From Bryum argenteum (taxonomy: Eukaryota > Streptophyta > Bryopsida > Bryales > Bryaceae), in contig CM073325.1 of assembly GCA_037043015.1 (NCBI GenBank), positions 21,989,001 through 22,053,000 of the forward strand: DNA of 64,000 nucleotides, written 5' to 3'. A program made the translations under genes and the position numbers. Of the stretch, positions 9,031 through 47,180 are shown piece after piece. A model generated the notes under the pieces. It did not search any database, had not been told where the DNA came from, and saw only the letters and a list, made by a program, of their open reading frames with translations. Every line of letters begins with the position of its first letter. Position 1 is the first letter of the stretch.

Positions 9031-9039
9031 GGCCACCGA

Positions 9040-12330: not shown

Positions 12331-12332
12331 TC

Positions 12333-16050: not shown

Positions 16051-17947
16051 GCTATTGAGGGAAATGCTTTTGACCCCTTCAACGTTGCTTCGTCACCATT
16101 CCTGTGTCAATGAGGGGCTCGGCCACGACACGATCTCTCTCGACCTTGCTTGAAGAAGATACGTGGCAAGCATTTTCAGGACTTTTGGTGAAGGGCGAGG
16201 AGATGACTTCTCAAGGTGCGGCGAATGTGACAAGCCGAGGGCCCTTCGCGCGACGTTCGCCGCGATCGAGAGGAATTCGAACGCGTCAACCGGAAGTTCC
16301 GATTACACCTCTTCACGCAGAGGCATGTCGGGCGGGCGATATCGCAGCAGGCGCTATCAAAATATCGGCCCTCACGAATGTTGTCTATTATCCACGTTAA
16401 GATGGACCATTCCAAAACAGCGTGCCCTGCGTTTGCAAGGAAGACCAAGTCCTTGGACGCTTACATGAAGCTACCGGTCATGGTGACGGGGATGTTTGCT
16501 CACGGGCACGGTGACGAGAAGTACGCGCACTACAGCTTGCCCATATTCGATTCCGATAGCAATTTCTCAGTGGGATCAATCGCGAAGTTGCTGCGTGATC
16601 TTGAGGAACCGCCCGTCAGTAGTTCCCGAAGCCTATTCAGAGGGTCCGGCTCCACGCCACTATTCCGGGCGCTGTTGCATGGAAGTGAGGTTTGTAGGGC
16701 TTCGTTAAAAGAGGCAAGTGAGGGCAGAATGGATGCCGTGCCCCTTCCGCCTGTGCTCCACATCCAAATGGACAACAATTGGAAGGATAACAAAAACCGA
16801 TATGTCTTTTGCTTTTGGTCTCTATTGGTTGCCAAACGTATTGTGAAGGAAGTGGTGGTCTCATTTATGATGGTCGGGCACACTCATGATGACATTGATG
16901 CATCCTTCGGGCGTTGGAGTATGAAATTGCGGGAGAATGACTATCCAACTCTGCCCTTGTTGATGCGGTCTTACATGGACATGGAAGAAGATGCCACGAT
17001 TCCTCACCTCGTGGAGGAGGTCCCAAACTTCAAGGATTTCATAAAACCATTTATAGCAACCGGTGCGAAGAGGCTAGTCGGGCATGCAAAGGGACGGCAA
17101 TTCAAGTTCTTTGTGGATGACAATGGTTGGCCGATCATGCAATATAAGTTGAATTGCACAAGAAAGGAGTGGAAGCCTGCTCTCGGAATCAAGTCGTGGA
17201 AGACGGACGCGAGAAGGCCGACCAATGCCGCTGAGAAGGAGAGCCCATGGCGGTGAGGCCGCAAGCATTGAAGGGTGAAGACGACATACTTCACGGACTA
17301 GATGGATACATCAAGCATTGGGAGAGCTTGTTGGAAGAGGAAGCTGGGTCTAATTTCCACGCACATGTATCACGCCGTATCCAACACCGGACGAGGTAAG
17401 AGATAGCGTGAGTGAGAAGGACTACTTGATGGGTTCTCGTGAGTTGCGGTGTGGATTTCGGCCTCACACGAGACAACAAGGAGACATCATGACAGACATC
17501 ATGGAGGATGGAAGAACTCGAGAGGAGATGGATGAAGACGAACCGTACATCGGAAGTTTGGATGCCAGACCACCACCGTCTTACAATGTTGCCGTCGATG
17601 CAAAGAAGGGGTTCCTCCTCTTTGTGCGACCCGCCTCCGAGGCAAGGGAGCCGATATGGATGGGAATGGCGGACGACGATCCACAGTTTGATCCTACTCG
17701 GGAACATTTTCGAGAGATCCCCATGAGGTGGTATGTACCATGTGCAACTGGAGGCAATGTGATAGAAAGGTATCAAGGTTGGGACAGACATAAGCGATTC
17801 ATGTGGAAGCCCGATCCTACGTGCACCATGGCAGACTATACATCAACCGATAGCATCCTTGCATCGTGGAAGCCGAGGTCAGCCAAAAACAACACGCAAG
17901 TCGCACCGAATAAGCAAATACAATTTGCTTTGGACAACTTACGCTGA
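15260..17947 (+). pseudogene. Decayed DUF7869-type transposase
   Basis: Three blocks belong together by family resemblance. 15260-15667 contains VHGGKAK-like VYGGKAKVVTVEGEEICIK. 16378-17256 contains HIQMDNNWKDNKNRYVFCFW, VSFMMVGHTHDDIDASF and an upstream MDHSKT...GMFAHGHG. 17408-17947 forms the C-terminal part, with WYVPCATGG and HKRFMW. The QxDNxxxxNK...VGHTHxDID pattern is typical of the DUF7869 family, which is common in genomes rich in DNA transposons and thought to have an RNase H-like fold. The blocks lie in different frames with no clean splice sites, and HIDGMD of the family reads HVKMD here. I infer a pseudogene. Confidence 0.6.
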
Positions 17948-22525: not shown

Positions 22526-23303
22526 TTGCTAAAAACAAAAATATTGGAGAACAGGGTTCGACACCCCGCAGGCGGACATCAAGGACCGGAGACCACAGTC
22601 CAAAAAATATTCGCAGCCAAATATTGGTGGCCCACGGTGCACAAAGATGTCCACACCTATATTAAAAACTGTCACGTGTGCCAAACCGCACCCACAAATT
22701 TCCAGCATCAAAGACGAGTGCCACTAAAATCAATCCCACCACTGGGACCATTTCAAAGATGGGGACTCGACTTTGTGGGACCAATCAAACCGGCAACAAA
22801 GCAGGGATACAAATACATCTTGGGTGCCACAAATTACACCACCAAATGGGTAGAGGCGAAGCCTTTACGCAACAATACTGCCATGGTCACCGCTACTTTC
22901 CTCTACGAAAATGTAATCACGCGGTTTGGGTGCCCTTTGGAAATCGTTTCGGATCAAGGCACGCATTTCGTCAATGCAGTCATCGAAGATCTCATGGACA
23001 ACCATCTCATCAAACACAGGACCAGCACAGTTTATTATCCCCAAGGAAATGGACAAGCAGAATCTACCAACAAAACTATTCTAACCATGTTGCGCAAATT
23101 CGTGATAGCTAACCAAGTCGACTAGGATGACTGTTTGCCTGCAGCTTTGTGGGCCTACAGAGTAGCTACCAAAGCAGCCACTCATTTTAGCCCATTCGAA
23201 CTCGTGTATGGGGCACAACCGTTGTTACCGACAGAATATATTGTGCCAACCTTTAGATCCATGCAGCCACGTGATTACCAACCTCACCGTATCCTCGCAG
23301 CCC
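22526..23303 (+). mobile_element. Ty3/gypsy integrase fossil, left part
   Basis: This fossil holds the integrase zinc finger (GGHQ at the start, then CHVC) and the catalytic core with DFVGPI, IVSDQGTHF and YPQGNGQAE, which are the ordered marks of a Ty3/gypsy integrase. The rest of pol and the 5' end of the element are not in the window. The copy is interrupted by the 22.6-kb transposon E1 and has about one further break. Its right part resumes at 45869. It is older than E1, which is inserted in it. Confidence 0.9.
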
Positions 23304-23375
23304 AGGATCCCAGTTGTGCGAGCAGTGAGCCGTGAGCGATGAGCAGACTTTTAATTAGTCGTGAGCAGACTTTTT
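23304..23375 (+). repeat. E1 left terminal inverted repeat with GTGAGC motifs
   Basis: Contains GAGCAGTGAGCCGTGAGCGA and two copies of GTGAGCAGACTTTT or a close variant. Reverse complement of the right end shows the same run of GTGAGC units followed by two GTGAGCAGATTT copies, so the inverted repeat is imperfect but clear. Confidence 0.75.
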
Positions 23376-23892: not shown

Positions 23893-24372
23893 GGTGCAGA
23901 TGATGCTAATGGCAAAGATGACACTAATTTGCACAGCTTGCGGAGAGACTATAGAGAGCTTGGAGGAGGTCGATTATCATCAGAGTTAAATGTTATAATG
24001 TGTGTGGGATGTGTGGCGTTTTTGCAAAGATCGATTGTGCGCCATCATCACGGATTGAATAATGTAAGAAAGTAGTGACTTTCGTGTATAAGAGGTGTGA
24101 AGTTGTAGGTCAATCAAGCTGCCTCAGTCGGTGCTCACTAGGTTGGATCTGTGTAGGCGGTGGAAGTGCCTACATGCTCTTGGTGTGGACAGACAGAAAA
24201 CCTCACCGAGTGTAGCTGCTGCGTACTAAGCTGGTGTGCGGCTTGCATCATTCGGAACTATGGTGACGACACCCTTGAAGGAGACATGGTGGACGACATG
24301 TGCTGGGCTTGCTTCCTTTGCAACCCAGAGCATATATCAGGGCTCATACTGGAGGCGGAGTTCAACAACTAA
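23893..24372 (+). CDS. ADD-domain zinc-finger protein 1
   Basis: Two exons are likely. The first, after the acceptor ctcgcag, carries CTACGETIESLEE and ELNVIMCVGC. The second begins near 24160 after tgtgtag and carries CSWCGQTENLTECSCC, WCAACIIRNYGDD and CWACFLCNPEH before a taa stop. The order CxxC, VxxCxxC, CxWCG...CxxC, WCAxCI.RN.GDD, WxCxxC is that of the ADD domain of ATRX and DNMT3, which binds the H3 tail. The two halves of the first finger lie in frames one base apart near 23985, so this copy may be damaged. Exon-like sequence follows at 24410-24510 (EWPKFERGIDWLMQLPEL) and 24550-24650 (LRIKLKDIWNGTFEALG), perhaps an alternative C-terminus. Confidence 0.6.
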
Positions 24373-25013: not shown

Positions 25014-28000
25014 TCAGGAGTCGGATTCTGATGCACTCAAGTCTAAATATCGCTTCACACCCGGATGATATCTAGGAATCGTAGCAATATCAGGGGAAGA
25101 GTCTGATAACACAGTACTATAAGCTTCCGCTAAGACTTCCGCATATGAGGGAAGTGTAAACGATAATGGTGGGCTAATTTGAAGCTTGGAGAGTGTGTCA
25201 AATACACTCACTAAACTGCACAAGCAACCACATAACATGATTAGAATATATTATCAAAAAATTAAAATGAATGGAATTCCAAGACAACGGAGTGCGACTC
25301 ACAGAATCCATCTCGCTGTGCGGCTTGGATTGGTGACTCGTCGCCCGAAGGCCCTCCGGTTGGCACGGCTGGTGTGCCCGAGGTTAGCTGTGCTGGAATT
25401 GTAAGTGGCAGAAGCACCTCATTGAAAATCTCACGGTCGCCCTCTAGTGCCAAAATGTTGCGGTTGAGGGAAAGCGCTGCTTGAACGGATGTGCCTGCAG
25501 TTAAGAAATTAATACAGTCAGTTATGTAGTTGTTGAGTGTAAAGGATGATGTCAATGGAATGAGAACCAACCTGTTGCTGCTCCAAAGTCAAGGACGAGT
25601 CCTCTCTCCGGACACATCCCATATATGAGTGGTTTGAAAAACAGCTCCGTGCGCTGCTTTGGACCCCTCCATGGTTTCCCATCTGAGGTCTTTCGAAGAA
25701 GACCCTGATCGTCGATTGCGTTGAATAACATGTCCTCCTTATTGAGGTCAACACCGGGTGTAAACGGGTTGAGCTTTACAACGAGGGGAGTTGGCTGTCG
25801 GCGAGCAGTAGGCGGAAGGGCCCTCACCATAACGACGGCCTTGGAGATGTATGTCTGCAAGAAAAAATACAAGTTTAGAAAAATAACACGATGCTATGCA
25901 CGCCACAGCAGGTCTGCCGGCACCAAGAGGTCGTGGTACCAGCAGGGGCTAACAAGACCGCGGACACCAAGGCACCACTCAGTCATCCGCCGGCACCACG
26001 CAGGCTTCTGGCGGCACCAGCAGCCACCCGCCGAAACCATCAAGGCTCGTCGGAAAGGCAGCTGTTTTGAGAGGTCTGCCGGCACCACTTGGGGAGCGCC
26101 AGGTCTGCCGGCACCACTTGGGAAGCGCCAGTACGCAGTGGGGTAAGCCGGCACCGGTACGCAGTGGGGTAAGCCGGCACCGGCAGGAGTCCGACGGAAC
26201 AAAAGAGCAGGGTATGCAGGCTCCAGCATGTGTCAACAATCCACTGGCAACCTGATTTTAAGCAACATAGCGAAATAGCCCAGGATTGGCGATTTCTTTG
26301 GCAAGATTACATCTACATATAGAGAAGCAAAGGCTCTGCCTAGCATTATCTTCAGTTATTATCAACTTAAGTATCCGCCTAACGAGACACACGAAAACAC
26401 AAGTAAGTTCATATCTTACCAAACGTGTTGGATCCGAGGGGCTGCACAGCGGAAGAGAGTTAAGAATTTTCCACTCCAGTGCAATCTTCAGGTTGAAATT
26501 CGCCGTAAATGCCTCTATCTTCTTTCTCACGACATATGAATCTGGATAGAAGATCACGATTGCCCCGTCGTCATGCAGGTACCTGAAGGCAAATTCAGCA
26601 ATTGTCTTTAAAAAGTTTGGTTGAAGAGAATTCCATCGAGGAATCTGGTGCTCGGGATCGGAGACTTCTGGAACTCGCATTCCATCTGGATAGTCGGCTA
26701 GCATTAAATCGACGCCTGCATGTCCAACTTCGAGAATACCTTCAAAATATAGACGGCGACCTGTAGAAACCTGTGGTGGAAATGGAACATGCGAATGTCA
26801 AAACTCAATCGAGATACACGTCTCTGAAATGAACATGAGTGAAGATGTACCTCGGTTAAGAACGATTTCGCTTCGTCGTACTCTAGAGGAAAAGGGTCTC
26901 CAACTGACTTCACATCCCACCAACGGATGAGAGAGTCGTTGATGATCTTGACTCGAGCGCCGTTAGGATTCATAACGGGATGAATATCCAGCATCATTCC
27001 ACGTAGAGCAGAAGGGAGCATCGAATCCGATGCATTCGTGGTCTCAGTACAAAGTGGCGAAGTTTTGACTTGAGTTAAACCTCGAGGTCTCTTAGTGAGC
27101 GGCATGGACCTCGTGATCTCGTCCATGGAGTCTTGAAACGGGTCGATTGGAGAAGCTGCGGGCAATGCATCTTCTTCATCTCCTTCGTGCAGGTCGATCA
27201 CATCCTTCAATCGTGGGCGAGAATCTGTAGACAATGGAGCATCAATGGGCGGTGTTACAACGGCTGGTGCAGCCTTTCGCTTGCGTCGACTCCGTGAGTT
27301 CTCTGGCTGAGAGTCTGTCGGAACTATGGCTTTCTTGAGTTTCAGAAGCTCCGGCTCGATCTTTCCGAGCATTTCTTCCTCAAACTCAGGGCATTGGCCC
27401 TTCTCCATGTCCATGTACCAACCACAAGCAGCATAGTGCTGCTTCTTGAAGTCCTTCAGCTGACCTGCGGTATACATGCACTTCTCGTCGCTTGCGTTGG
27501 TGTAATTGACAAAGGATGTTGGTGTCTTCAAAATCGCCTTCTGTGGAAGTAGAACGTGCTTTACGTATCTGTAAAGGACCCGAGAAGTCGCCTTCTCAAA
27601 GTTTGGCTGCTTCTCGGGGGGGTCGTTTTTGTGCACACCCTTCCCTCCTCCTTCCTTGTAAGCATCCTTGTCTTTTATGGAAAATTCTCTGTAGAATGCG
27701 GTATCTTAGAGCGCGATACGCATCCGCTCGACATATTCTGTGATAGTGTCGATGGGCTCCTCAGCACCTGGCGGGTTGTAATTAACAACTTGTTTTGCCA
27801 TGTCCATCTCGACATTGAACTCCTTGGCAACAGCAATTGAGAGCTGAACACCACAAAACTCAAATGTAAGTTAATAATTTTGTAACAGGGCATTGTCAAC
27901 CACACCATCAACACATCAACACTTGGTTGTGACACGACAAATAAAGAGAATATTGCTTAAACATCAAACTTATATGATTCAAAGAAACTGTTTGATTCAA

Positions 28001-31000
28001 TTCTACGTACCTGCGACCACCAAGTCGCCTTGTTAAGGAAGCTGAGATATGCTTGCTCAGTAAACCCAGCTTTGGGAAATCGTTGATTCTCACGAAACTT
28101 AAACGACTTGTTCCACCGTTCCAACCAGAGAAGCTTCGAATCGATGTCCATAGCGCAGGTTGCAAAATACCACAACTTCTCCTGCGACATCTCCACCTCA
28201 CAGAATGTTTCGTAATGTTCCTTCTCAAGCTCGAGGAACCTATCTGTGTTGTCGGGATGGCAAATCGGTAGTTGTTTTCTCAACTCGCTCAATGTTGTAG
28301 ATTTCTTCTCTTGAACAGCCTTGTTGACCGCATCATGAATTGTTGCCGCGGTAAACTTGCCCAAACCGGAATCACGCCTAAAGTCTGAAGCAGCTTTTGC
28401 CGCGGCTTGAGCAAAGTCCGTCTGAGAAAAAGAAAATAATTATAAAGAGCATGAATGTGGTCAACTTGGTTGATAAAAATTTAAAATTCGTACCTGATAC
28501 AACACATTGCACAAAGCATTGATCGTGAGCTTATACCAAGTCGATTTGGTCAAGTTCTTGAGATTGGAGGCAGCTTCTTCCTCCGGTGTGATGATCCCTT
28601 TGAAGTATGAAATGTCTTGACGCCCAATGCGTTGCACTCGGTAAAGCTTGTGCACCAAGTTTAATTGAACGTGTGAGTTTTCATTTCGCCTGTCAATCAT
28701 TCAAGTGTTGCAGCTTTGTTAAAATTTCAATTACAAGTTGATTCATCAAGCAACCAATACCAAATACAATTCCAAAATTCTATATCCAAATGGACTGCCA
28801 AATTCTACCTATACATTTCAACGAATGAAGGAAACGGAGCGCTAGGCCATGTCGACTCGAGCTTACCAATTTATCTCGTGAAGAGCAGTCAAAGCTGCCA
28901 TGTTATCACCTTTAAGCTCCAACAAGATGCAGTCGACTTTGAAGTGCCATACAAGATCGTTGGTTTTCTCGGCGTTGATGAATGGATACCAGGCTTGGAG
29001 CCGGTGGTTTCCATCCCAAACGTGAAACATCTTGTTGCTAAACTTCTGAAGGTCAGGGTCAGCTTGTAAGAATTTCTCAAAGTCATTGTTTACCTGTACC
29101 CAATTCTCGCTCCACGATGCAACGGTTTCAGGTGACACGTCAACTGTCTTGACACCATCCTTGGCGTCATTCTCAATGGAGACGTAGAACACGCCTTGGC
29201 CTTCGACATAGCCAACGGCACGAAAATGGTCCTGGAGCCTTGCGATGTCGGATTTCATTGCCGGTCTCACAACTGGGAGCCCCACCAACCGATAAAGAGG
29301 AATGCACATCCTGGATTTGTGAACCGGTTGAAAGCGCAACTGCTGAATTTTGGAGACGCTTACAGCTGCTTCTTGTGTAACAAGCTTGTTAACCTCCTTT
29401 GCAATATCTGCTTCTGACAAGACGTCAGCCACAGTATCACCATCTCCACGTTCTTCCACAGGGTCCTCGAGAGCTGGAAACTCAACAAATGAATCCTGCA
29501 GTTTTGAGGGATCATTTGCAACATCCCTCTCTCCATCTGCGATACAATTCGAAACCAAATCAGTTCATTGCAATGCCTAATTAAATGAGAAGGATCCCGC
29601 TGGCACAAGAAAGAGTGATCCGGCAGCATGAGGGGTGAGCCGGCACGAGACGTCCTCCCGAAGAGCGAGCAGACGCTTCCATTAGCATGGTCGAGGGGGG
29701 AGGTGATCTGACAGGGCCTGCTGGGAAGAGGCTAGCCGGCACGAGAAAAGGGTAGGCCGGCAGCCGACGTGATACGCCGGCACCGGAAGGATATCGAACT
29801 GGGCCTGCCGGCACCACCTGTGCTGAGCCGCTGCAACAATGGTCTGGCCTTTGGGATCGAGGACCTGCGCATTCCATTTCGAAATTTCCGTTAATCCCGG
29901 ATCGACTGCGCGACAGGAGAAGCAGGAGATGAAACAAGCTGTGCTGGTGCCATGGCCATGAATTCGGAAGAACTAGCAACCTAGATTGCAAGGAAAAGCA
30001 TGAGCAGCACCGATTGGTGCCGCAGGGGATGAAAGCCTGCAACAAAATGTGGCTTAGTAGAAGTCAATGCTCACAAGATTATGTATGCGATCCATGACGA
30101 CTGAGGTGGGGTGCGCCGGGACACATGATGCTTGCGCCGGCAAAAGAGGCCGACTGCCGGCTCCGGAAGGGCAGGCCCGCTCGCACCGAGAGTGGTGCGC
30201 CGGCAGAAGAAGCCATCTGCCGGCACCGTATGAGCAGGGACTTACAGCAGCGAATGTGGACTGCCGGCCCCTTCGGGGGACCATCGAGATCACCTCTGCG
30301 AAGGTTCTTCCTGATCATGATCATGCAAAGAGGTAAGGAGGCAGTTGTGCGAAAGAAAAATATCCCGCATTCTCCAACACTGAAGCACTTTAAGCATGTT
30401 GTTTATGATATTAGTCAAAGTATATCTGTCAAAAGAGGCTTTAGCGAGGCATTCTTACCTCAAAATTGTAGCTCCAATCCTAAAATTCCAGATTGGCGCG
30501 CCCTATGCCTGACTGCAAACTGAGTTCACAGGCCACTCCTAGATAACTCAAGCCAAGCCAGTATGGGCTGTGGGTGGCGGCAATGGTCGCCGAAGCCAAA
30601 CCACGAATGTCCACAATTGTCTTGAGGGTGGCGGCAGTGCTTGCTTTGTAATTTCGAACCTCATGGATTTGCTCGCCACAAATGCACTGTGGGTGCCGGC
30701 AGCGCACGACATGATTGCCCTTTGGGTGCCGGCAGTGTACGCCACGGGTGTCTTGAGGGTGAAAACCTCACGGCAGTGGTTGCCACGAATAAACTCTAGG
30801 TGCCGGCAGTGCTTGCCAATGCTCCATGAATGGCTACGAGCAATCATCGCAGACAATAGCCTCGTGCTGCCCCGAGACTGACTGAGCATGGGTCTGATGT
30901 CACCACCGACAATGAGCTGGCAGGTGCAGGTGGTCTGCCGGGGATAGCACGGGGTCTGCCGGCACCGAATAGGAGGTGCCGGCACCGGCGGGCTGCATGT

Positions 31001-34000
31001 GGACATGGATCTCCTGGCATCGAACTTCATGGCAGAGCTCGTAACGAATGCACTGGGTGCCGGCAGTGCTCGCCAGAATGTGTAGAGAATGCAAACCACA
31101 CGGCAGTGCTTGCCACGAATAAACTCTAGGTCCCGGAAGTGCTTGCCGATGCTCCGCCATGGATGGCTACGAAAGTACTGGCGGTGCCTCCAGTGCTCTC
31201 CTCGGTTGTCCTTTGGCATTGCTCACAATGGGCTCAAATCCGGTTGGTGCCGGCAGTGCATCCGCTACGCGCATGCCAAGCTCCGCCGCGAGTGGAAAGG
31301 AGCCTGTGGGTGCCGGCTGTGCTCAGAGTGGACTTGAATCTGGTGCCACGAATGTGGGTGCCGGCGCTGCTCAAACTTCAGCTCTCATCGCAGACAACAG
31401 CGTCGTTCTGCCCCGAGACTGACTGAGCATGGGTCTGATGTCACCACCGACGATGGCCGGGCAGTGCAGGGAGGTCGCCGGCGATAAGCGCTTGGGTCCG
31501 CCCGGCACCGAATAGGAGGTGCCGGCACCGGCGGGCTGCAGGTGCACATGGTTCACCCGGCACCATTCTTGATTGCGTTGTACCTTCGAACTTCATGGCA
31601 GTGCTCAAAACGAATGCACTGGGTGCCGGCAGTGCACGCCAGGATGTGTAGAGAATGCAAACCACAGGGCAGTGCTTGCCACGAATAAACTCTAGGTGCC
31701 GGCAGTGCTTGCCGATGCTTCGCTCTGGATGGCTACGAAAGCACTGGCGGTGCCTCCAACTGCTCTCCTTGGATGTCCTTTGTCATTGCTCACAATGGGC
31801 TCAAATCCTGTTGGTGCCGGCAGTGCATCTGCTACGCGCATCCCAAGCTCCGCCGCGAGTGGCAAGGAGCCAATGGGTGCCGGCTGTGCTCAAAATAGAA
31901 TCGAATCCGGTGCCACGAATGTGGGTGCCGGCACTGCTCACACTTCAGCTCTCATCGCAGACAACAGCCTCGTGCTGCCCCGAGACTGAATGAGCAGGGG
32001 TCCGATGCCACCACCGACAATGAGCTGGCAGGTGCAGGAGGTCTGCCGGCATTAGCACGGGGTCTGCCGGCATTAGCACGGGGTCTGCCGGCACCGACTA
32101 GGTGATGCCGGCACCGGCGGGCTGCATGGCGTTGTACTTTCGAACTTCATGGCAGAGCTCGTAACGAATGCACTGGGTGCCGGCAGTGCTCGCCAGAATG
32201 TGAAGAGAATGCAAACCACACGGCAGTGCTTGCCACGAACAAACTCTAGGTGCCGGCAGGGCTTGCCGATGCTCCGCCATGGATGGCTACGAGAGTACTG
32301 GCGGTGCCTACACTGCTCTCCTTGGATGTCCTGTGGCATTGCTCACAATAGGCTCAAATCCTGTTGGTGCCGGCAGTGCGTCATCTACGCGCATGCAAAG
32401 CTACGCCGCGAGTGGCAAGGAGCCTGTGGGTGCCGGCTGTGCTCAAAATAGACTTGAATCCGGTGCCACGGATGTGGGTGCCGGCGCTGCTCACACTTCA
32501 GCTCTCATCGCAAACAACAGCCTCGTGCTGCCCCGAGACTGAATGAGCAGGGGTCTGATGTCACCACCGACAATGAGGTGGCAGGTGCAGGAGGTCTGCC
32601 GGCGTTAGCACGGGGTCTGCCGGCACCGACTAGGTGATGCCGGCACCGGCAAGGTGCTGGTGCACATGGTTCTCGCGGCACCATTGTGTGCTTGCTTGAT
32701 TGACTTTTACTCATGGCAGTGCTTGGAACGAATGCACTGGGTGCCGGCGGTGCTCCCCACCGTGTGTAAAGAATGCAAACCCCACGGTAATTTTTGCCAT
32801 GAATAAACTCTCGGTGCCGGCAGGGATTGCGTAAGGGATTGCATCTGCTACGCGCATGCCAAGCTCCGCCGCGAGTGGCAAGGAGCCTGTGGGTGCCGGC
32901 TGTGCTCATAATAGACTTGAATCCGGTGCCACGGATGTGGGTGCCGGCGCTGCTCACACTTCAGCTCTCATCTCAGACAACAGCCTCGTGCTGCCCCGAG
33001 ACTGAATGAGCAGGGGTCTGATGTCACCACCGACAATGAGCTCGCAGGAGCAGGGGGTCTGCCGGCGTTAGCACGGGGTCTGCCGGCACCGACTAGGTGA
33101 TGCCGGCACCGGCAAGGTGCTGGTCCACATGATTCTCCCGGTGCTGGTCCACATGGTCCACACCATTCTCCCGGCTTGCTTGATTGACTTTTACTCATGG
33201 CAGTGCTTGGAACGAAAGCACTGGGTGCCGGCGGTGCTCGCCACTGTGTGTAAAGATTGCAAACCCCACGGTAATTTTTGCCACGAATAAACTCTCGATG
33301 TCGGCAGTGCATCTGCTTCGCGCAAGCCAAGCTCCGCCGCGACTCGCAAGGAGCCTGTTGGTGGCGGCTGTGCCCAGAATGGACTTGAATCATGTTGCCA
33401 CGGATGTGGGTGCCGGGGCTGCTCACACTTCAGCTTCATCGCAGGCAACAAGCTCGCGCTGCCCCGAGACTCATCGAGCATGGGTCTGATGTCACCACCG
33501 AATTTGAGCTGGCAGGAGTAGGAGATAGCAAGGGGTTTGCCGGCACCGAATAGGAGGTGCCGGCACCGGCAAGGTGCTTGTGCACATGGTTCTCCCGGCA
33601 CCATTGTGTGCTTGCTTGATTGCGTTTTACTTTTGAACTTCACTGCAGTGCTTGTAACGAATGCACTGGGTGCCGGCGGTGCTCTCCTCTGATGTCCTGT
33701 GGCATTGCTTACAGTGGGCTCAAATCCTCTTGGTGCCGGCAGTGCATCAGCTTCGTGCATGCCAAGCTCCGCCGCGAGTGGCAAGTAGGTTCCTGTGGGT
33801 GCAGGCGCTACTCACACTTCATCTCTCATAGCAGACCGAATATGAGCTGGCAGGAGCAGGAGGTGAGCAGGGCGTACCGCCGCTACAGTGCCGCTCTCGA
33901 ATTCGCAGAAAATGATACCACAGCCTGTCTGAGGAACGTGGTGAAAGTGCTTGAGTCGGTCTCAGATGTGCCATTTGGACTTGTCCCGAGTTTCTGTTCA

Positions 34001-36108
34001 TGTTCCCGTAAGCCATTGTCATGTGGCCTACTGCCACGGCCGTATTCGGAGTATGCAAATCCTCAAGCTGCGAGCAGATAGGGGTGCCTTCGTGGAGTCT
34101 TAAGCCCGTCCCGTGCAGGCTCCACCGTTGGATCTCAAAGAACTCACTCGCACGTTTGTACATTAAGAAAAATGAACTATTGCATCATCATGAAAATTAA
34201 TTAGTGGATTTACCTGTTCTAGTCATTGCCGTGTCCGACCGTGGGGTACCCGTCGCAGCGACTACGGAAAAAGCCTCCGCAGCCTCCTCACCAGACATTT
34301 GAGGTGATTCCGGCGAACAATCCCCCCCCGCAGAATGCTCTGACAGCTCATGATCCTCATGCGTTGGCGAGACCTGCGTCATTTCTTGTCCTACATGGAA
34401 GTCAACGGCTTGCACAGTAAGTTTCATCATATGAAACGGCGATTATCGCAACGTCGTTTACACAACAACGAATTATCGCAACGTCATTTACACAACAACG
34501 AAGCACTTGCACATCGGCCAAGCTGCCACAACGAAGGTGTCGGTGCCCTGTACGTAACGCCTGCTGTACGTGTATGCCTTGTAAAGCATGGCCACACGTG
34601 CGTGATGAAGCTGTCATGCACCCTCACGTCGTGCTGCAGATCGGCCATGTACGTCACTACACTCAACACTCAAATACAATGTTCCGATGAATTCTAATGA
34701 ATGTGAAGCTGGCTACTATCGGCAGCCTTCGCGATCTTGCTCTGCTTGCCAGATACTGAATGCGTCAACTGAGGCACTGCGGAAATGCGTCATCCGGCGA
34801 CGCAGGGGCAGGGAAAAGGGGAGAAGTGCAAACATCTCATCCACCACCAGGGGTCACGCAATTACCGACAAAAATGGAGTCACTGAAATCAGCTCTCAGC
34901 TTGACAAAGAATTCGAGAAGTGCAAAAAGGAAACTCAAGCAACTGTGGGCATGCGAAAAGAGCGCACGGCGGCTTCGAGCTAGACTCATACTCTTCGATC
35001 CAGGCGCGATTAGGGTATAGTTAGGAACCTGATGTTGGTCGGTGGCACGCCGGCACACCCAACCTCGCCTGCGCGATAGCGATTCGGTGGCCACGAACGG
35101 CATGTCGATGGCTTGTAACAGAGCGCAGTACGCTGTTGACGAGGGCTCGGTTACAGGACAGGTCGGTGACAAGACAGTGCCGGCAGTGTCGATGTTGCAA
35201 CCGGGGAGCCCAAAGCAAAGCGCTTGACCGAAACGCAATTAGGGTTGGGTCGGGAAGCTGATGCTGGTTGGTGAATCAGCAGCTTGCCTGAGCTGGCCTT
35301 ACCTATCACGATGCCGGAAGATTAGTCGGGGAGTCAAAGAAAATAGTCGAAGTGCGTGAGCGTTGCCGCGGAAGGAATAGGGTAGGCGGGATATCAAATT
35401 TCAATGAATTGACGGGCTACAACTAAGAGCGTTAGGGGTTAACTAAGAGCGTTAGGGATTAGCATCCCGCTATGCGAGAAGAGGGTACGGTAGATGCCTG
35501 AAAGCGATCACAAGAAACTCCAATTGAAGTCACTAGTACCGTAATGTCACGACCTAGGCCTCCGCATCGTAAATTGACCGTCGCATTCATAGTTTTCACA
35601 TCAATCATAAGTTGAATTTGATTCAAATAAAACTGTCTACGTCAACAGCTAAAACATCTTACCTTCATTATCTTCGTCGTCGCTGTCATCGCTTCTGAGT
35701 TTCTCATTCTTCCAGTTCAAATCGTCCTCAGACAGTTCTTCATTTTCCTACGTCCCAAATAAGAAATAAGCTTCTGGATTCTAACACAATTCGTCAAATC
35801 TAACAAAAAGTAGAAAAGCTTGCCTGATTCCTGCGCCTGCTATACGTGGTTTGAGCGCGCCCCATGGAGCCCTCCCTTGCCTCTTCAATTTGTAAATCAC
35901 ATCCAATGTTCTCTAATATGGGAAATAATGCTTTTGCTGTATTGCCTATATTGCTTGAGCGCTCGCGACTAACTCTCTCCTTCATCTGCGTGACACTAGA
36001 TCGTCTTTTGGAGAAATACAAGCGACCTCCTGCTACCCTCTTCTTACGTCTCTTACTTCTAGCACTCTTACTATTTTGATCGTGCTCAGCTCGACTTTGC
36101 GGCATCAC
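25014..36108 (-). CDS. ParB-like domain / DNA amino-methyltransferase fusion, 11 exons
   Basis: My exon model, phase-consistent throughout, is 36108-35824, 35747-35663, 34408-34214, 29536-28867, 28689-28494, 28421-28011, 27843-26851, 26770-26420, 25854-25572, 25494-25303 and 25210-25014, about 1,285 codons. Residues 1-190 are basic and then acidic, a likely nuclear tail. Exon 4 holds a ParB/Srx-type domain (MFHVWDGNHRLQAW, residue ~363). Exon 8 has DLMLADYPDG (residue ~970) where DPPY, motif IV, is expected. Exons 9-10 read KQRTELFFKP, then VLDFGAATGTSVQAA and RNILALEGD, the classic motif X/I layout. Motif IV before motif I defines the beta/N6_N4_Mtase order. Such ParB-methylase fusions are known from phages and bacteria. 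The first intron begins with GC. One in-frame TAA lies at 27706-27708 in exon 7. The substrate (6mA or 4mC) is unknown. Confidence 0.75.
25880..26230. repeat. Intron-borne GCCGGCAC repeats
   Basis: Lies inside the intron between exons 8 and 9 of the methyltransferase gene. Two tandem duplications are clear: ggtctgccggcaccacttgg (26070 and 26101) and a 26-bp unit with aagccggcaccg (about 26131-26185). The core is the same GTGCCGGCA motif that fills the large intron and the region 3' of the transposase. Confidence 0.8.
29590..34060. repeat. GTGCCGGCAG repeat block with ~500-bp higher-order units, in one intron
   Basis: The 4.7-kb intron between exons 3 and 4 of the ParB-methyltransferase gene is filled with GTGCCGGCA motifs. 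From about 30600 to 33800 they are organised in some six units of 460-570 bp. The landmark tgagcagggGTCTGATG or its variant tgagcatgg falls at 30883, 31424, 31991, 32544, 33007 and about 33477. Many open frames of 60-150 codons on both strands arise from this repetition and are not genes. The presence of such a repeat inside an intron is odd, and the splice phases on both sides still agree. Confidence 0.85.
34430..35660. other. Intron 2 of the ParB-methyltransferase gene, no repeats of note
   Basis: Between exons 3 and 2 of the minus-strand gene. Contains a tandem duplication of about 27 bp (ttatcgcaacgtcNTTTACACA, 34442 and 34469) and several unremarkable frames on both strands. I recognise no separate gene. 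Confidence 0.4.
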
Positions 36109-36608
36109 TTAGACATACTATGTAGTTCTCAGATGCCACTAAAAATGCAAGGTATCCTGAGATTAGCATCTCCTTACCATGAGTTCTCTGACGGTGCGTA
36201 AATTGAAAAAGCTCCCATGCACGTTTAGCATTGATAACGGCGCAGTAAGTTCCATTATTACCACTCTGTACTTCGCAAATTCCGTCGGTTCTGACACCAC
36301 TAACCTTCTGTAATTACATCTTCTAAGTGGCCGCACTTACATAATGGTCGTCATTTTTAGAGTACCCCCATACCATGTTTAAAACTTTCAATTTCAATTG
36401 CTAACATCCTTTATTTCTTGTGGCGGCCACTTTAGTATGCTCCAGTGTGTCAGATTACCTGATTTAGTTTGTATTATTTATTTCCACGACGAACGTAATT
36501 TTAATTTGACGGCTATTATGAACTAAGAGTTCTTTGCATTTCATGTATCCACTGCAACTAACTTGAAATCATACGTGCAATCAACAGGTTCTGAAATATT
36601 TTTCTCCG
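36109..36608. promoter_or_regulatory. Divergent promoter region of E1
   Basis: These 500 bases separate the start of the minus-strand ParB-methyltransferase gene from the ATG of the plus-strand transposase. They contain an inverted repeat, CTAAGTGGCCGC (36323-36334) and GCGGCCACTTTAG (36423-36435). An intron may end at 36588 (caatcaacag) in the transposase leader. E2 has the same head-to-head arrangement with a GACGGCGGCCGTC palindrome, which suggests a shared control site. Confidence 0.5.
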
Positions 36609-39600
36609 ATGGCAACTATCCGAGTGGATGGTGGGCGAGCCCCGTTGCGTGTGCTACCTCAATCTGATGGTCGAATCGTCGTGAGTGCTAGAATGTTGTC
36701 TGCGAAGTTTACTTTGGGTTTAGATTCGCTCTTCCTGGAGGAAGAAGTCTTGGACGATGTCGGGAATCTTTCATACACTGTGCACATTGAGCCTTCCGAG
36801 GGTGAGGATGTAGTGTGGATATTACAATCATCGCAGTACCGTGTTCACGGTGTTGTCATTCCTTCACAACCGGCATTAGCGACCTCAGCGTCTGAGTGCG
36901 AGATTCTTCCATCTAGTGCGAAAATGAATCCACTTATGAAATGCGATGAGAGTGATGTACAGTCCGTTCGGGAGACAGAGCCTGCTTCGCACGATACTGT
37001 GTTACCTCCAAATCCTCAACCAACCTCTATAGCTCCGTCTCCATCTAGGTCTGAGAGTTTCAATAAGAAGCCTCCGCTTCCACCATCTAACAATGACCCC
37101 GTTAGTGCTGTCTCATGCATCCGCAAACTGCAGTACAGGAAAGGCGCAAAGAGTGAACTTAGCAAGATAGAGTTGAATACCTTTCAGTACTCCTTCGTCC
37201 ACTATTTGCCGGCCCAGTATGATGGCAATCTAGTTTTTGAGTTTCCACCGCCTCTACAGGATACCAAGATGGGCACTGCGAAAAAATTGTCGGGAATGGA
37301 CAAACATCACGATGGTCATACATGGTGCAATCTGCACACTCGTAACATTCAAAATGACCATGGTCTTACCTTCCGCATTGCATATTGTGCTGGTCATTTA
37401 CGTTGTGAGAATGCAGAGTGCGGTTTTCTTCAGAGAGAGAGTCGGGAGGATGATGTCAACGAGAAGCTGTGGGATGGCTTTGTCAAGAAGCCGTTTCTTG
37501 GTAAATGCCCTCAGTCTGAGTCAACGCTCGTGTGTGCAATTTGCAAGGAACCAGCGACTTGTATTCAAAAATGCTCAGCGTTGATGTACTACGTCACGGG
37601 TGATACTAATACGACCAAAGCATGTATTCACATCGGACACCACAATCACCCTGTGGGGCGTGGTACGTGTAGGGAGTCTCTGGATCTCCGCGATCACTTA
37701 TTACAGGGAGCACTTGAGAGAACACCGAAGGCGTCTCCATCAGCGATTGCATTGTCAGCTAGTTCCGAGTTCCTTGGAGACTACCTTTTAAAGAAGGATG
37801 GAGAGACTCAGTCTGTGTTAACGGATAAGGAATTGCAGGATGTTATGTTCAAGTTTGAGAGTTTCACAAGTCCCACAATTCGACACAACGTGTCGCATTT
37901 TAGAAGGATGGGAAGAAATGGCATAATCGACGGAGTCTGCGAGTTGAGGGGGACTTCACGGTGGCCATATGTGCAGGAGAACAGATTTCCTGGCCAAGGG
38001 ATTAAATCAGACAAGGTGTTCGTGTTCAAAATGTCAGAGCTTGGACCTGGATCGGGCGTTGATCTCGTCAGACGAATGCAACCTGGAGGAAAGTTGCAAA
38101 ATGCCTGGGTCATGTTCGACCACGTAAAGCACATCAAACGCTACACAACCTTTGCATGCCACGTGTACGAGCCGAAGTATCGGAAGGTGATGACGATCGC
38201 AATTTGCGACATGATGTCCGAAACTCAAGATGCACAGTCATACCTGTGGAGAGGAATCAATGCTGTCATGGCTGAGCACGGAGTTCACAACGTTAACTTT
38301 GCGGGCTTTATGGCAGACAGTGCGCAGGCTAATTGGAATGTTGTTCGGGAAATCTACGGTTCAGGTGATAAATCCGTTCCAATGCCAAATAAGGAGCGTT
38401 CATGTCTCCTACATTGGACTACTTGATGCAGAGAGCAACAAACAGTTATATTAAGCCTGAACTTCGCGACGAGCACAAGCGACTGTGCACTCAGTGGAAG
38501 GATGCGCGTACAGCTGATGAAGCAGAATCGCATTGCATGGCGATTCGATCATGGTGGTCTACAAGCGGAGCAGCCAGCGACTCGGACATCCACGCACTCG
38601 ACAACTGGTTAGCGTGGTGGCACTTCCGATATTGGCAATGGGGCGGGTACATGGACATGGTACTTGTCCGGATTTCTTTTGCTTGTTCGTATTCCTCTCG
38701 TATATATTCTGTAATCAATGCGCCCGACCTTTCTTGCTTGTGTTCATTTGCTAAGACTACTGTTTTGCATGTTCAGAAACTTACGGAGGACCAGAGAGCG
38801 GAGATGCCCATGTGCAATTTATCTGAGACTATCCATGCATCATGGAGCAAGCAATCCGGTAAACTCTGTGATAATATTTTTGAGGCTACCATCGAAGACT
38901 ACTGTCGTGCATTCGTTCAATGCACCAGGTACAATGCATTTGACAAAGGTCGTGGATCTGGTACCGGTCCAACTCTCGAGGAATTGCGCTTTCGTGCTGC
39001 TACCCGCTCTGCTTCTAAGAGCGGCAATCTTAAATCAGTTTACCGTGCGATGGATCTTGTACCGGGGGCGGATGAATTTCTCGTTGGCGCAGCATCGTAC
39101 GCAGGGGAAGAAGTGTTTGGATCCACAAAACGAAGGCTTGATTCCGAACCAGGTGGTGAAAACGACTCTCACAGGTTTGACAAGGTGAACTTCTCGCAGC
39201 CGAAGACCATGAGGACACAGGAGCATGGATCTCCCTCCACACCGATTCAATTGGATGCTAACAAAGACGACAATGACAATGTCCAAGTCGTAATGGAGAC
39301 AAGCCCGGTTCATGCTCGCGAAGGTGTGCAGCACGTCACGAGGGTTCTCGAGCTTGAATGCTCACCAAAGATGTGGCACATTCGCCGAATGCCTTCTGTA
39401 GGAACGAAGATTTGTACGGCCATGATCCCGGACACCAACAGAAAGTGTAATCGCGGGCTTCCAAATGGAGAACCTGCTCCAGCCTACCACGGCGTGAAGC
39501 ACGTTTGCGCCAAGAACAAGAACTATGCGCAGTTCTTTTTTTTTTGTGCAGACAATGCTATAGGGTGCTTAGCAGGAAAAAGGCGTAGATGGTTCCCTGA

Positions 39601-40225
39601 TTCGCCAAAGGTGCCACACATTTGGCCCGTGCAAAAGGGAACTAACCTCACAACGCGGGAAATCCTCACTTTAGAGGCGGCAGGATTTCAGTTGCAACAG
39701 AAACCACCAATGCCGACCGAGAGGCAGTTTGGAAATGATTCGGCAATCGCAGCCAGTATTGCGAACATTCCGGCACCGGAAAAACCCGACAAGTTTCTCA
39801 ATATAAGAAGCTCTCGCCCTTGTCGTCGCAATGTTACAAAGAAGGTGGCCGCTCAGCAGTTGAACAAGTGGGAATCAGCCATGTTACTCGACGTCGTCCT
39901 AACTCGCATTATGTTGGTGCCAAGCCCCGGACTTGGGGCAGTGATTGATATAATATCCAAGAAGGGTCCTGCGAAAGATGCGCAAAAGTACAAGGTAAGC
40001 ATTGGTACATTTCCAGAGTGCACGTGTCCTAGCTTCAAGAGCATGTACATTCAGTTCAAATCGCGTAAATCCTACGAAAACTGCAAGCACATTTACTACA
40101 TCTATCGTGTGGTTTGTGGCCTCGACCAAGAGAGAGACCGGTTTGTACACGGCCCGACATTGAGCTTCAACGAGATCAAGCGACTTCTTCTGAACGGAAT
40201 TATCCAGCGGATTCCAAGCACTTAG
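36609..40225 (+). CDS. Mutator-like transposase with SWIM finger (E1 copy)
   Basis: Reading in order: N-terminal region (residues ~1-190), a GCM/WRKY-like finger (CAGHLRCENAECGFL, then HIGHHNHP), and an RNase H-like core with MFDHVK, CHVYEPKYRKVMTIAICD and GFMADSAQANW followed by CLLHW (the CxxH of Mutator transposases). After these come QWGGYMDM, a middle Cys-containing stretch (KCNRGLPNG, FFFCADNAIGC) and a C-terminal SWIM motif (CTCPSFK...NCKHIYYIY). It cuts and joins element ends. An intron of 117 bases at 38660-38776 keeps the frame open and has gta...cag borders. One apparent one-base frame change near 38420 separates the two long frames (36609-38426 and 38402-40225). The E2 copy reads through that place. 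It is divergent to the ParB-methyltransferase gene. Confidence 0.8.
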
Positions 40226-40639: not shown

Positions 40640-41300
40640 AACCTGTGCGCCGGCGCCGGCGGACCCCTGCTGATGCCGGCGGACCTCTCGTGGTGCCACC
40701 ATACCTCATCTGGTGGCTGCCGACCGTTGCCTCTAGCGTGCTGTTGCTCTCGCCGGCGTACCCCTCTGCTGGTACCGGCGGACATCTCGTGGTGCCGGCA
40801 TACCCCATCTGGTGGCGGTCAGCCGGCTCAATTGCCCCTACCGTATCGTTGCCGGCGCCGGCAAACCCCTGTTTGTGCCGGCAGACCTGAGGTGGTTCCG
40901 GCAGACCTGAGGAGGTGCCGGCAGACCTGAGGAGGTGCCGGCATACCCCATCTGGTGGCGATCAGCCGGCACACTTGCCCCTACCGTATCGTTGCCGGCG
41001 CCGGCAAACCCCTGTTTGAGCCGGCAGACCTGAGGTGGTTCCGGCAGACCTGAGGAGGTGCCGACAGACCTGAGGAGGTGCCTGCAGATCTGAGGAGATG
41101 CCAACAGACCTGAGGAGGTGCCGGCACACCTGAGGAGGTGCCGGCAGACCTGAGGAGGTGGCGGCAGACCTGCGAAGGTGCCAGCAGACCTGTGGCGTGC
41201 AGCCAACAAACACTTGACTCCTGCGTTCCATTGATGACGCAGTCCACCCCTGCTGGTACCGGCGGACCTCTAATAGTGCCGGCGGACCCCTACCTCTTCA
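40640..41300. repeat. Tandem GTGCCGGCAGACCTGAGGAG array 3' of the transposase
   Basis: A ~20-bp unit, ggtgccggcagacctgagga, is repeated about a dozen times between 40870 and 41200. A larger duplication of about 143 bp (landmark cttgcccctaccgtatcg, near 40832 and 40974) overlies it. The core is the same as in the introns of the methyltransferase gene. Minus-strand frames here are products of the repeat. Confidence 0.85.
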
Positions 41301-41999
41301 TACCCATGCTCGTGCAGGAGGACCTCTGGTAGATCTGGCATACCCGTTATTGTTCTGGGGAACGCTCCGTGATGCTAGCACGTCCCTTCTTGCACTTGGT
41401 GGTTGTGGCCTTGGAGCCTTCTTGTGCCGGCGGAGCCTTGTTGCTGCAGGAAGACCCCTCGTAGTATGGAACTCCGTGGTCTTGTTTTCGGACGCGTTGG
41501 GCCAACTCGAGTGCGTGCGTTGCTGTGCTGTACGCACTGCCGGCGCTGGCGCTCTTACTTGATATCGACCGCTATCAGCGGTCCCGCCCTTCGCGAGTGT
41601 TCTATCAGGGTGGTGACGAGGGCGCACTTGGCTAAGTTTCAGAGTTGTGTTTAGTCAAGAGTCTGGGCGCGGCATGCCAACACGTGTGCCAGCTCTATAG
41701 GGTGCTACCGCTCTCGTGCTGAACCGCGTACCGACTCTTAACTTTAACGCGATGAAGCGTCTTCTACTAGGTGGATTTATCTACCGTGTTCTTTGCGCTT
41801 GATGCTCTTCTAGACATTTCATACGACAATGAAACGAGTTGTAAGGCGAAAAAAAGGTTGAAAGAGCATTCCATATTAGAAGCAAAATTTTGCGTATGTT
41901 TAGATATCGAAACAGCTTTTACCATATCAGTCCAATATCACTATGTTATGTCAACTTGACATACGTCACACATATACATTCACATCCAGAATGTACTCA
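41301..41999. other. Spacer with fading GCCGGC repeats
   Basis: Isolated copies of the GCCGGC motif continue to about 41545. After this the sequence becomes AT-rich. No gene is seen. Confidence 0.4.
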
Positions 42000-42577
42000 C
42001 TAAGGGATATTGTTATCTTCAATACCTTCCTCTACTGCATCTTCCCAAATGGATGGTGATAGTGGAGGGTCGTAGTTCTTTGCTGTGTCACGGAACTCTT
42101 CCCATGTCTTGGTCAATTCGGTGTACGTGCTGCTGTCACAACTAAAGCACTTCCAAATCTCTACAGCGCGTTGGATCTCTACTACGTACTCGTCACCTTT
42201 GTTGTTCGATATACAACCAGCACACCACATCTTCGGGCACGTTCCACAACTGATCATATTGTAGTGATGGTCGAAGCACCAACTGCAGCACTCTTCCTTC
42301 CCAGCCTCATTCTGCCGAAATCAAGTGGAACACGAATTAGACCAGTTGTGAGCATTCAGTGATCTGAACAAACTTTGTAACATCAGACATGACAACCACA
42401 ATATATTCCATTCTGTAAAATTCCTACCTTTGTCCACTTCTTCGTTGCATAGTCTGCACGACATTGACAAGAAAGACCAACTGCGAGACGCGGGTGCTGT
42501 TTAAAGGAAATCTGAAACCTCGTATCCCCACAAGCGGAACAATCGTAGGTTGGACCACTGAGAGTGACTGAAGCCAT
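42000..42577 (-). CDS. ADD-domain zinc-finger protein 2
   Basis: Two exons with clean borders, 42577-42428 (donor gtagga) and 42311-42000, giving about 153 residues. Exon 1 holds YDCSACGDTRFQISFKQHPR and then VGLSCQCRADY. Exon 2 holds CCSWCFDHHYNMISCGTC, WCAGCISNNKGDEY and IWKCFSC, followed by a tail TWEEFRDTAKNYD and an acidic end. This is the complete order of the ATRX/DNMT3 ADD module: a GATA-like finger with HPxLxV, then a PHD-like finger. In ATRX the module reads H3 with K9 methylated and K4 unmethylated. A role in binding chromatin near the element is inferred. An upstream in-frame GTG gives a longer frame, but the ATG at 42577 is the likelier start. Confidence 0.75.
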
Positions 42578-42639
42578 ACTAAAGAATCCGAGCGTTCTCG
42601 CAGCAACGACATACAAAAATGAACCATCCGTTGCCACTC

Positions 42640-44076
42640 TATATACTTATGTAATAAGATCTCTCAACCACTCTTTTGTCAGACAATATCTATTTGTCAG
42701 AAGACAGATCATGATCTCCCACGAAGCCTTCTTCAATTTTCACTCGCCCTGGGTCCACTGCCTTCTACGCTGGCCCCACCAACACGCGCTAGGTCCACCG
42801 CGTTGTTCGCCGGCCCCCATTATAACTAGATGCAGGTGCTTTGATTTCGAACGGTACCAAAGTATTTTGTGGTAATGGGGCATTGAGTAATTTTCTTTAT
42901 TTACTCTGTCAGGGGTCTGTTCTTCGCTTCTCAGTTCTGGTGTTCCTCAGTTTGTTCATACTAAGTCCATTTTGTGTGGTCGGCCAATTCTTGTGCACCT
43001 CCTACATTTCAAAATCAGTGCCTAACATCGTCAAAAATTGTGTCCTTATACATATTCGAATTTCATTATCGCTAGATCTTGTGCATGCCCTCGGTTTGAC
43101 ATCATAGATGTCCGCAAGATCAGAGCCATAGGCCGGTTTGAGTACTGTACCGTCAACAATAGGCATCAGTTTTTTACCGAACACGATGGCTTGCATTTGA
43201 AATTTCTAAAGATGAAAACTGGTTCCCTTAAAGCAAGACATGCTACCAAGATCGCGAGTTCTATCACCGAAGGTATATTAAGTTACTGTATGTAGAATTA
43301 CACATATCTCTGAACTAAACAAATCTGCACAGAGTAGACACACCTCACTTGACCAAACACAAACAAACAAGCACACTCCTGATCACTTCTACAGATCACT
43401 GTTACTTATACTGACTCCTCTCACTCATGAGAGAGACGACACAGTTACTATCTCCTGGCAGCACTAACGGCTCAACTGATTAACAATGATTGCAAGTCGA
43501 TGCTGGCAAGATCGTCTACATGGCAAGTAAGAATGCCACCTCCACAGAATCACTGGTCCACGTGCCAGACAAAAGTCATCACAGTGTTGAAACTAATTCA
43601 ATGACTATAGATGTCAAACCTCTGGATACCAAGATTCCGATGTTTGATCACTAAGCCCAAGAATTTTTGTTTGGCAGTTACTCTTAAAATAATGTTTGTT
43701 AAATCCATCAACACATCTTCCATTTCATCACCTCGGAATGGATCACCTCAGAATGGATGTGCTCAATAGAATTGCCTGAGATAGCGAGCGAGATACTATT
43801 CGGTGAGCACTCCTGTTTCTGTTAAATTGGTTCATGTCATCGGAAAAAACTGGCCAAAGGTTAAGACTTTAATCACATTGCTTGATCAAATAGACAATTA
43901 CAAAGACTTGATGATAGTCCACCAAAGGTGCATTACGAAGCAGATGATGTGGCCTGGTGCAAGCGAAAGTAGCAAGATTGAAGTCGGTAATTTGTATTCA
44001 AAAAATTCCAACACATACAAGTCAACTCTCAATCCAAGTGAGTCGTAGCAATACAACTGCTATAACTATCAATCCG
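42640..44076. other. Spacer between ADD genes 2 and 3
   Basis: Contains short frames only, such as 43803-44048 on the plus strand, which opens with GTG and has no known domain. AT-rich with no repeats of note. Confidence 0.35.
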
Positions 44077-44514
44077 CTACTCGTAGTTGGAATCACTATC
44101 AGAATCACTGCTGCTGCGATCACCCGCTTCTGAAGTGAATTCCAGGAAATCCTCCCAAATCGTCTGCAGAGGCACTAACTCATACTTGTTGCAGCTGAAG
44201 CACCCCCAATTTTTGCCCGTCATGTCCTTCAGGTAGTCGTCTCCCTTGTTCCGTGCGATACACGCTGCACACCACACCTTGTTACAATAGTCACACGGGA
44301 TCACAAACTGAATTCCCCCACACCAATTGCATTGCTCATCATCGTACTGGGCGTTCTTCGTGAACACAACGTCATCCAACACAAGTTTGCACGAAATGCA
44401 TATGCCAACACCGAGACGAGGATGCTCCAACAAACAAGCACGGATTTTTTTCTCCCTACAGGCAGTGCAAGAATACAAGTACAATGGATCAAAATCGCCC
44501 GAATGCCCCGCCAT
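44077..44514 (-). CDS. ADD-domain zinc-finger protein 3
   Basis: A single exon of 145 codons from MAGHSGDFD. An open frame extends 34 codons further upstream. The domain reads YSCTACREKKIRACLLEHPR, then GVGICISCKLVLDD, DDEQCNWCGGIQFVIPCDYC, WCAACIARNKGDDYL and NWGCFSC, and ends with a Ser/Asp-rich tail. All cysteines of the ADD module are present, and the DEQCxWC and CDxC...C spacing closely follows human ATRX as I recall it. It shares the WCAxCIxxNKGD core and the TIWEDF-type segment (TWEEF in protein 2) with its neighbour, so the two arose by duplication inside the element. It probably reads histone H3; the tail may mediate other contacts. Confidence 0.8.
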   Translation of the reverse strand: MAGHSGDFDPLYLYSCTACREKKIRACLLEHPRLGVGICISCKLVLDDVVFTKNAQYDDEQCNWCGGIQFVIPCDYCNKVWCAACIARNKGDDYLKDMTGKNWGCFSCNKYELVPLQTIWEDFLEFTSEAGDRSSSDSDSDSNYE

Positions 44515-44619
44515 TTGATCCACAACAGTCCAATAGTGAGAAGCTTCATAAATGAGATGGCCAACAAGAAGCTTAAAAAACGAGAATTGCTTTGAGATGC
44601 TGCCTACCCTGCTCATCCG

Positions 44620-45789: not shown

Positions 45790-45868
45790 CTAGAATATTC
45801 CCTCGAAATCTGCTCACTGCTCATTGAAAATCTGCTCACCGCTCACCGCTCACACCGTAATCACATTG
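45790..45868 (-). repeat. E1 right terminal inverted repeat
   Basis: Reads on the minus strand as GTGTGAGCGGTGAGCGGTGA followed by GCAGATTTT and a second GTGAGCAGATTT, then gaatattc. The same order, including the inner gaatattc and a further ccgtgga segment, is found at the E2 end beginning at 47129. This shows that the two elements share this terminus. Confidence 0.75.
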
Positions 45869-47128: not shown

Positions 47129-47180
47129 GTGTAAGCGGAGAGCGGTGAGCGGTGAGCATTGAGCCATCAAGTTTCAGAAA
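47129..47180 (+). repeat. E2 left terminal repeat
   Basis: Series of GAGAGCGGTGAGCGGTGAGC units starting at 47140, matching the GTGAGC-rich ends of E1. It follows directly after the stop of the gypsy fossil frame. Confidence 0.7.

Follow-up and report, generated by a model that had tools for sequence, protein, structure and literature searches.

Eukaryotic transposons that carry a gene for a ParB-methyltransferase have been described previously. In the brown alga Ectocarpus, the transposon Sola1-1_Ec32 encodes a 1104-aa ParB-methyltransferase on the strand opposite to its transposase, and the same work cites green and red algal parallels (Iyer 2011; Petroll 2025) and proposes a function similar to the one considered below (PMC12477816). 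The present analysis concerns a 64,000-nt stretch of Bryum argenteum DNA (CM073325.1), called the window and giving all coordinates used here, in which a ParB-like/methyltransferase gene lies within a probable giant DNA transposon (element 1) that is followed by a diverged relative (element 2). A sequence-only reading of this DNA knew of no described plant transposon with such content; with the architecture already published for Sola1-1_Ec32, and with algal parallels, the finding adds one more example to a class that is on record. What is new is a transposase that is not identified as Sola1 and is possibly related to those of Mutator-like elements (MULEs), the ADD genes and the candidate target repeats.

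Element 1 resembles Sola1-1_Ec32 in having a fusion gene opposite the transposase in a large transposon, a comparison made by description only and with a ParB identity that is tentative in element 1. It differs from Sola1-1_Ec32 in that its transposase has not been assigned to Sola1 (flank duplication of 7 to 11 bp, SWIM-like end), in that the copy is decayed, and in its ADD genes and arrays of private palindromes.

Other known systems share single traits with element 1. The VANC proteins of Arabidopsis VANDAL elements, which are MULEs, bind short motifs, tandemly repeated in introns and other noncoding stretches of the element that encodes them, and bring about a loss of DNA methylation there (PMC5735166). 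Element 1 likewise has private short motifs in introns and noncoding parts, a resemblance in layout only; VANC is not described as a methyltransferase in the excerpts of PMC5735166, unlike the element 1 protein, and the VANC21 motif YAGTATTAY is non-palindromic and arrayed in one orientation, unlike the element 1 palindromes. The Dam-like adenine methyltransferases of DIRS elements are also amino-methyltransferases borne by a eukaryotic transposable element, and differ in that DIRS are retrotransposons, that the enzyme is Dam-like and that a ParB-like part is unmentioned in the excerpted text (PMC5890265). The bdelloid N4CMT is, like the element 1 domain, a permuted amino-methyltransferase of family PF01555 in a eukaryote, and differs as a host gene fused to a chromodomain that deposits N4-methylcytosine (4mC) on transposons; the term SPPY occurs four times in the text of that paper (PMC8885841). 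The element 1 motif reads DYPD.

The ParB-like/methyltransferase gene of element 1

The gene was resolved on the minus strand as a chain of seven exons from 29536 to 25303, all with GT-AG introns and in continuous phase, comprising 1032 codons of which one is a stop. Exon 1 (28867-29536) carries the ParB-like stretch (FHVWDGNHRLQAW ... LHEINW) and has a related exon at 56541-57049 in element 2; it is followed by exon 2 (28494-28689), exon 3 (28011-28421), exon 4 (26851-27843), exon 5 (26420-26770), which supplies the N-terminal half of the methyltransferase domain, VDLMLADYPDGM occupying the motif IV position, exon 6 (25572-25854), with PKQRTELFF and VLDFGAAT (S-adenosylmethionine (AdoMet) motif I), and exon 7 (25303-25494), with the remainder of the motif I region and RNILALEGD. 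The sites of introns 1 and 2 match those of the diverged copy in element 2 (57.04-57.42 kb, plus strand). The layout recognised in the sequence-only reading, with a ParB-like part and an amino-methyltransferase within one exon chain, is thus retained, as is phase consistency across these seven exons; the 11 exons then proposed are reduced to them. A candidate exon at about 34.4-34.2 kb, before 29536, and a candidate last exon reaching 25014, the latter only with a TTTAG acceptor, fit in phase by eye at most.

By sequence comparison, the C-terminus of the chain is a genuine methyltransferase homologue. Indeed, its 248-aa C-terminal part matches the Pfam family N6_N4_Mtase (PF01555) with 27.1 bits (E 4.7e-6; cut-off 26.7), which bears out the methyltransferase domain of the sequence-only reading, while the whole 1031-aa chain scores 22.1 bits, under that cut-off. 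When the methyltransferase part was searched by tblastn with an E limit of 1, 70 phage records were recovered, the best at E 6e-3. Among the best 20 of these 70 (E 6e-3 to 0.2), 16 are annotated as a methyltransferase or methylation subunit and four as hypothetical; E is 0.2 for the two phage records that span 91% of the query. Nine plasmid records were weakly matched (E 0.2 to 0.6; 19-26% of the query), six being annotated as methyltransferase, one as 'rmsM: hypothetical' and two lacking annotation, and the six PHROG matches (E 0.003 to 0.32) are without exception methyltransferase families. Aligned with two phage enzymes whose PF01555 scores are 105.5 and 106.7 bits, the domain places VDLMLADYPDGM on their VDMILCDLPYGM and VDLILTDPPYAI (motif IV position), PKQ on the phage-enzyme HPTQ and VLDFGAATGTS on VLDNCIGSGTT and VLDFFSGSATT, in the permuted beta order of motif IV position, PxQ and AdoMet motif I. 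With alignment A3, 15 loci were obtained in the viral contig scan and at least one in a profile search of genome contigs, the frames from those 16 loci measuring 205 to 370 aa. The methyltransferase part drew no PDB sequence match up to E 1, and no relatives of it were confirmed in the viral contig scan.

A ParB_N domain is marked by a GxxR box followed, in proper register, by a helix ending in EN... A custom ParB profile, built from 33 proteins (31 from genomes in the phylum of an archaeal metagenome-assembled genome, plus P1 ParB and F SopB), places its GerRlaA box on DGNHRLQA with just 0.8 bits. When both elements were aligned and compared with the ParB profile by hhalign, the match was weak and in the correct register (probability 8%, score 20.7), and this score was reached in none of 200 column shuffles, by a narrow margin (best 20.43). 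The Pfam model ParB_N (PF02195) gave no match up to E 10, and a weak DndB match (E 0.096) appeared during the ParB model scans. On the strength of motif and register, the N-terminal part is called ParB-like here and not ParB; the WDGNHRLQAW motif previously read as a ParB-type domain aligns weakly in the right register, and no ParB profile match is significant. A PDB sequence search with the ParB exon (E up to 10) found nothing, no relatives of the 470-aa N-terminal part were confirmed in the viral contig scan, and a ParB domain was present in none of the four prokaryotic or phage enzymes scanned with Pfam. An AlphaFold model of the ParB-like exon (three-row alignment) reached a pLDDT of 37, too poor for a fold search.

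Element borders, transposases and the second element

Element 1 has probable borders at 23304-45868, which would make it a giant DNA transposon of 22,565 bp, as indicated by inverted repeats, a flank duplication and a flanking gypsy-type frame. The target-site duplications on the left (23293-23303, plus strand) and right (45869-45879, plus strand) are identical at 10 of 11 positions (CCTYGCAGCCC), the length of the duplication lying somewhere in 7 to 11 bp. Inverted repeats of 48 bp, identical at 40 positions, begin 21 bp inside the assumed left end (23325-23372, plus strand) and 15 bp inside the assumed right end (45806-45853, minus strand); the outermost bases of the two assumed ends mismatch each other. 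In the left flank, a Ty3/gypsy-type frame runs up to 23303 (integrase PF00665 at 22526-23122, E 1.7e-12), and a right-flank frame, open from about 45870, looks by eye like its sequel (...HRILAA on the left, LAARMDDLHRL... on the right), so that a gypsy-type pol gene appears, by eye, to be split by element 1. Pfam gave no match to the right-hand frame (45861-47120), and confidence in the role proposed below is lowered because this pol continuation is without profile support. No Rfam match was obtained at gathering score. The transposon context given in the sequence-only reading is kept, and the element appears to extend beyond the 25014-36108 interval then described.

The element 1 transposase gene (36567-40225, plus strand) stands head to head with the minus-strand ParB-like/methyltransferase gene and consists of two overlapping open frames, 36567-38426 and 38393-40225, with a frame break at 38393-38426 where element 2 reads through. 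Its C-terminus contains a CxC..CxH pattern, which we take to be a SWIM-like signature; the SWIM match, found in element 1 only, has E 0.039, below the cut-off, and none of the MULE transposase models matched. Target-site duplications of MULEs measure 8-11 bp (PMC6446971), and the length of the flank duplication together with the weak SWIM match suggests that the transposase is possibly MULE-like. An AlphaFold model of the transposase (two-row alignment) had a pLDDT of 30, too poor for a fold search; the transposase alignment drew no PDB sequence match up to E 10, and no relatives of it were confirmed in the viral contig scan.

Element 2 (47124-57592; left border approximate, placed visually with the help of a repeat at 47140-47158) has a related transposase gene (47597-51412, minus strand), whose identity to that of element 1 is 40% and 35% for the two frames (42% when the first frame is aligned), and ParB-like exons (56541-57592, plus strand) with a frame change near 56.70 kb. 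The divergent transposase/ParB-like pair and two intron sites are common to the two diverged elements. No methyltransferase part of element 2 was found in the window, element 2 breaking off near 57.6 kb. The ratios of divergence at codon positions 1+2 to that at position 3 are 0.71 and 0.55 for the two ParB parts and 0.62 for the transposase, and this lower change at positions 1+2 is as expected for genes under selection. A retrotransposon (57592-63931) seemingly interrupts the ParB-like gene of element 2; it encodes gag (60623-61936, PF03732, E 1.9e-14) and a weak aspartyl-protease frame (E 0.017).

Private palindromes and ADD genes

The palindrome GCCGGC occurs 81 times in element 1, where 4.5 sites are expected from a first-order model, versus 7 times in the other 41.4 kb, and 80 of these 81 sites fall outside the listed reading frames; TGCCGGCA occurs 39 times in element 1 and once outside. 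The palindromes sit in introns or upstream regions of the ParB-like/methyltransferase gene and downstream of the transposase, with the main GCCGGC cluster at 29639-33740, upstream of the ParB-like exon, and further clusters at 25916-26178 and 40649-41544. The GCCGGC and GCGATCGC motifs were first spotted by eye and counted afterwards.

Other palindromes are present elsewhere in the window. The 18-bp palindrome ATSGGGCGATCGCCCSAT has 26 sites at 174-9332 (at most 4 mismatches) and none elsewhere in the window; the first 10 kb, base-shuffled 20 times, gave a mean of 0. Its sites surround the exons of a gene with a frame (1327-2160) that contains GGQHTVAAHQ and is questionably ParB-like (hhalign to the ParB profile, 0.85%), near which lies a NIF/small CTD phosphatase-like frame (5941-6597, plus strand; PF03031, E 1.3e-17). 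A third palindrome, approximately TCTGRRCGGYCGYTCAGA, occurs at 11007-15939, on the upstream side of a gene at 16231-17256 that matches DUF7869 (Pfam E 1.3e-43); it was noticed by eye and then counted, giving 21 sites in the window at no more than 5 mismatches, and all six sites with no more than 3 start at 13780-15922. A blind search for palindrome-like 16-mers returned one cluster of 14 members at 175-6719, and none in 5 shuffles. CCCGGG was considered as a private palindrome of element 2 and dropped, five of its seven copies lying inside a single 170-bp tandem array.

Furthermore, three ADD-type genes sit between the ends of element 1. A 194-aa frame (44080-44661, minus strand) encodes an ADD-domain protein with both finger parts, whose residues 62-172 match ATRX ADD chains with E 4e-13 and DNMT3A only with 0.9; the Pfam model ADD_ATRX gives 0.016, below its cut-off. 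A second ADD-like gene (42003-42646, minus strand) apparently has two exons (42646-42386 and 42320-42003), and a third ADD-like finger (24157-24369, plus strand) is represented by its C-terminal part only; neither paralog matches the ADD model on its own. These genes could conceivably stem from a nested insertion within element 1. In the visible part of element 2, tblastn with the ADD protein gave no convincing match (best E 0.71), and no relatives of this protein were confirmed in the viral contig scan. Among the literature matches listed, none reports ADD genes in transposons, and no stronger absence is claimed.

Proposed role and competing explanations

We favour, tentatively and with slightly less than even confidence, the view that the ParB-like/methyltransferase gene serves a giant DNA transposon as an accessory gene, and that its product would address the repeats of its own element for anti-silencing or self-marking. 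An intact protein would bind the dispersed palindromes of its element (TGCCGGCA cores in introns and downstream of the transposase), and the bound palindromes would be methylated or covered; only the own family would thereby be protected from silencing or prepared for transposition, an outcome that VANC proteins achieve by other means in Arabidopsis VANDALs. The co-carried ADD proteins would recognise histone H3 where copies are silent. All three steps, binding, methylation and effect, are predictions. A wider and doubtful version of this proposal is that giant elements of this genome carry private palindromes, which the ParB-methyltransferase would read as a parS-like address and where it would write 4mC or N6-methyladenine (6mA), with ADD proteins reading silent chromatin; the whole would form a self-addressed epigenetic kit whose target evolves by repeat expansion, in the manner of VANC and with a DNA mark of bacterial type.

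Several results weigh against the favoured role. In the beta class of N6_N4_Mtase enzymes the catalytic motif is (D/N/S)PP(Y/F/W). Motif IV of the element 1 copy is DYPD, in which Asp replaces the aromatic residue and which departs from the catalytic consensus, and motif I (GAATG) deviates from FxGxG, the two phage enzymes having CIGSG and FSGSA. The activity of the element 1 copy is in doubt because DYPD stands where relatives have D-P/L-P-Y/F: this form is present in all 19 of the relatives that span the catalytic motif, the other 3 of the 22 fetched ending before it, and the 19 are not independent cases, as several of the 22 are near-identical. The Asp in place of the aromatic residue argues against activity of this copy and is the chief result against the interpretation first given. 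In addition, an in-frame TAA (27706-27708) in exon 4 interrupts the chain, which is thus not open as it had been described. The element 1 copy is decayed and probably catalytically dead, and self-marking by this copy, as suggested in the sequence-only reading, is too strong a claim given DYPD, the stop codon and the transposase frame break. The other difficulties concern the ParB-like part and the palindromes. None of the ParB models of Pfam, PHROGs and NCBIfam matches the chain. The DUF7869 region has a private palindrome and no tblastn match to the ParB-like frames, so that the link between palindromes and ParB-like genes is not an exclusive one. In element 2 there is no clear dispersed palindrome, only 56- and 170-bp tandem arrays. 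The blind 16-bp search missed the element 1 motif, whose conserved core is shorter, and the GCCGGC palindromes could be ordinary minisatellite spread.

The departures at motifs IV and I also bear on an unlikely alternative, in which a catalytically dead methyltransferase fold would serve only as a DNA-binding or target-recognition module, as a pseudo-enzyme regulator of the transposase. Both DYPD, against the form seen in the relatives, and GAATG, against the motifs of the two phage enzymes, are consistent with it; however, DYPD may belong to the decay of a copy in which a stop codon and a break in the transposase frame are found too, and the pseudo-enzyme reading draws on the single available copy of the methyltransferase part. 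It is improbable that the gene is captured host or bacterial cargo of the Pack-MULE type with no role for the element. Mutator-like elements do capture gene fragments (PMC6431247), but two elements with transposases only 35-40% identical both have such a gene in head-to-head position to the transposase, with two intron sites in common, and an equivalent pairing is published from a brown alga, in a transposon of another superfamily (PMC12477816). Even more improbable is that the ParB-like part and the methyltransferase belong to two neighbouring genes: although about 530 aa without a family match (chain residues 225-757) separate them, a single phase is maintained through the seven GT-AG exons, one 993-nt exon spans 331 residues of the intervening stretch, and both domains occur in the one 1104-aa Ectocarpus product (PMC12477816).

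In summary, if intact copies work as proposed for the accessory gene, transposons would use a bacterial-type amino-methyl mark, aimed by internal repeats, either to counter host silencing or to work around it. With the private palindromes there is a concrete, testable candidate target site for a class of proteins for which no target is named in the literature found, and the ADD genes suggest that element 1 also reads histones.

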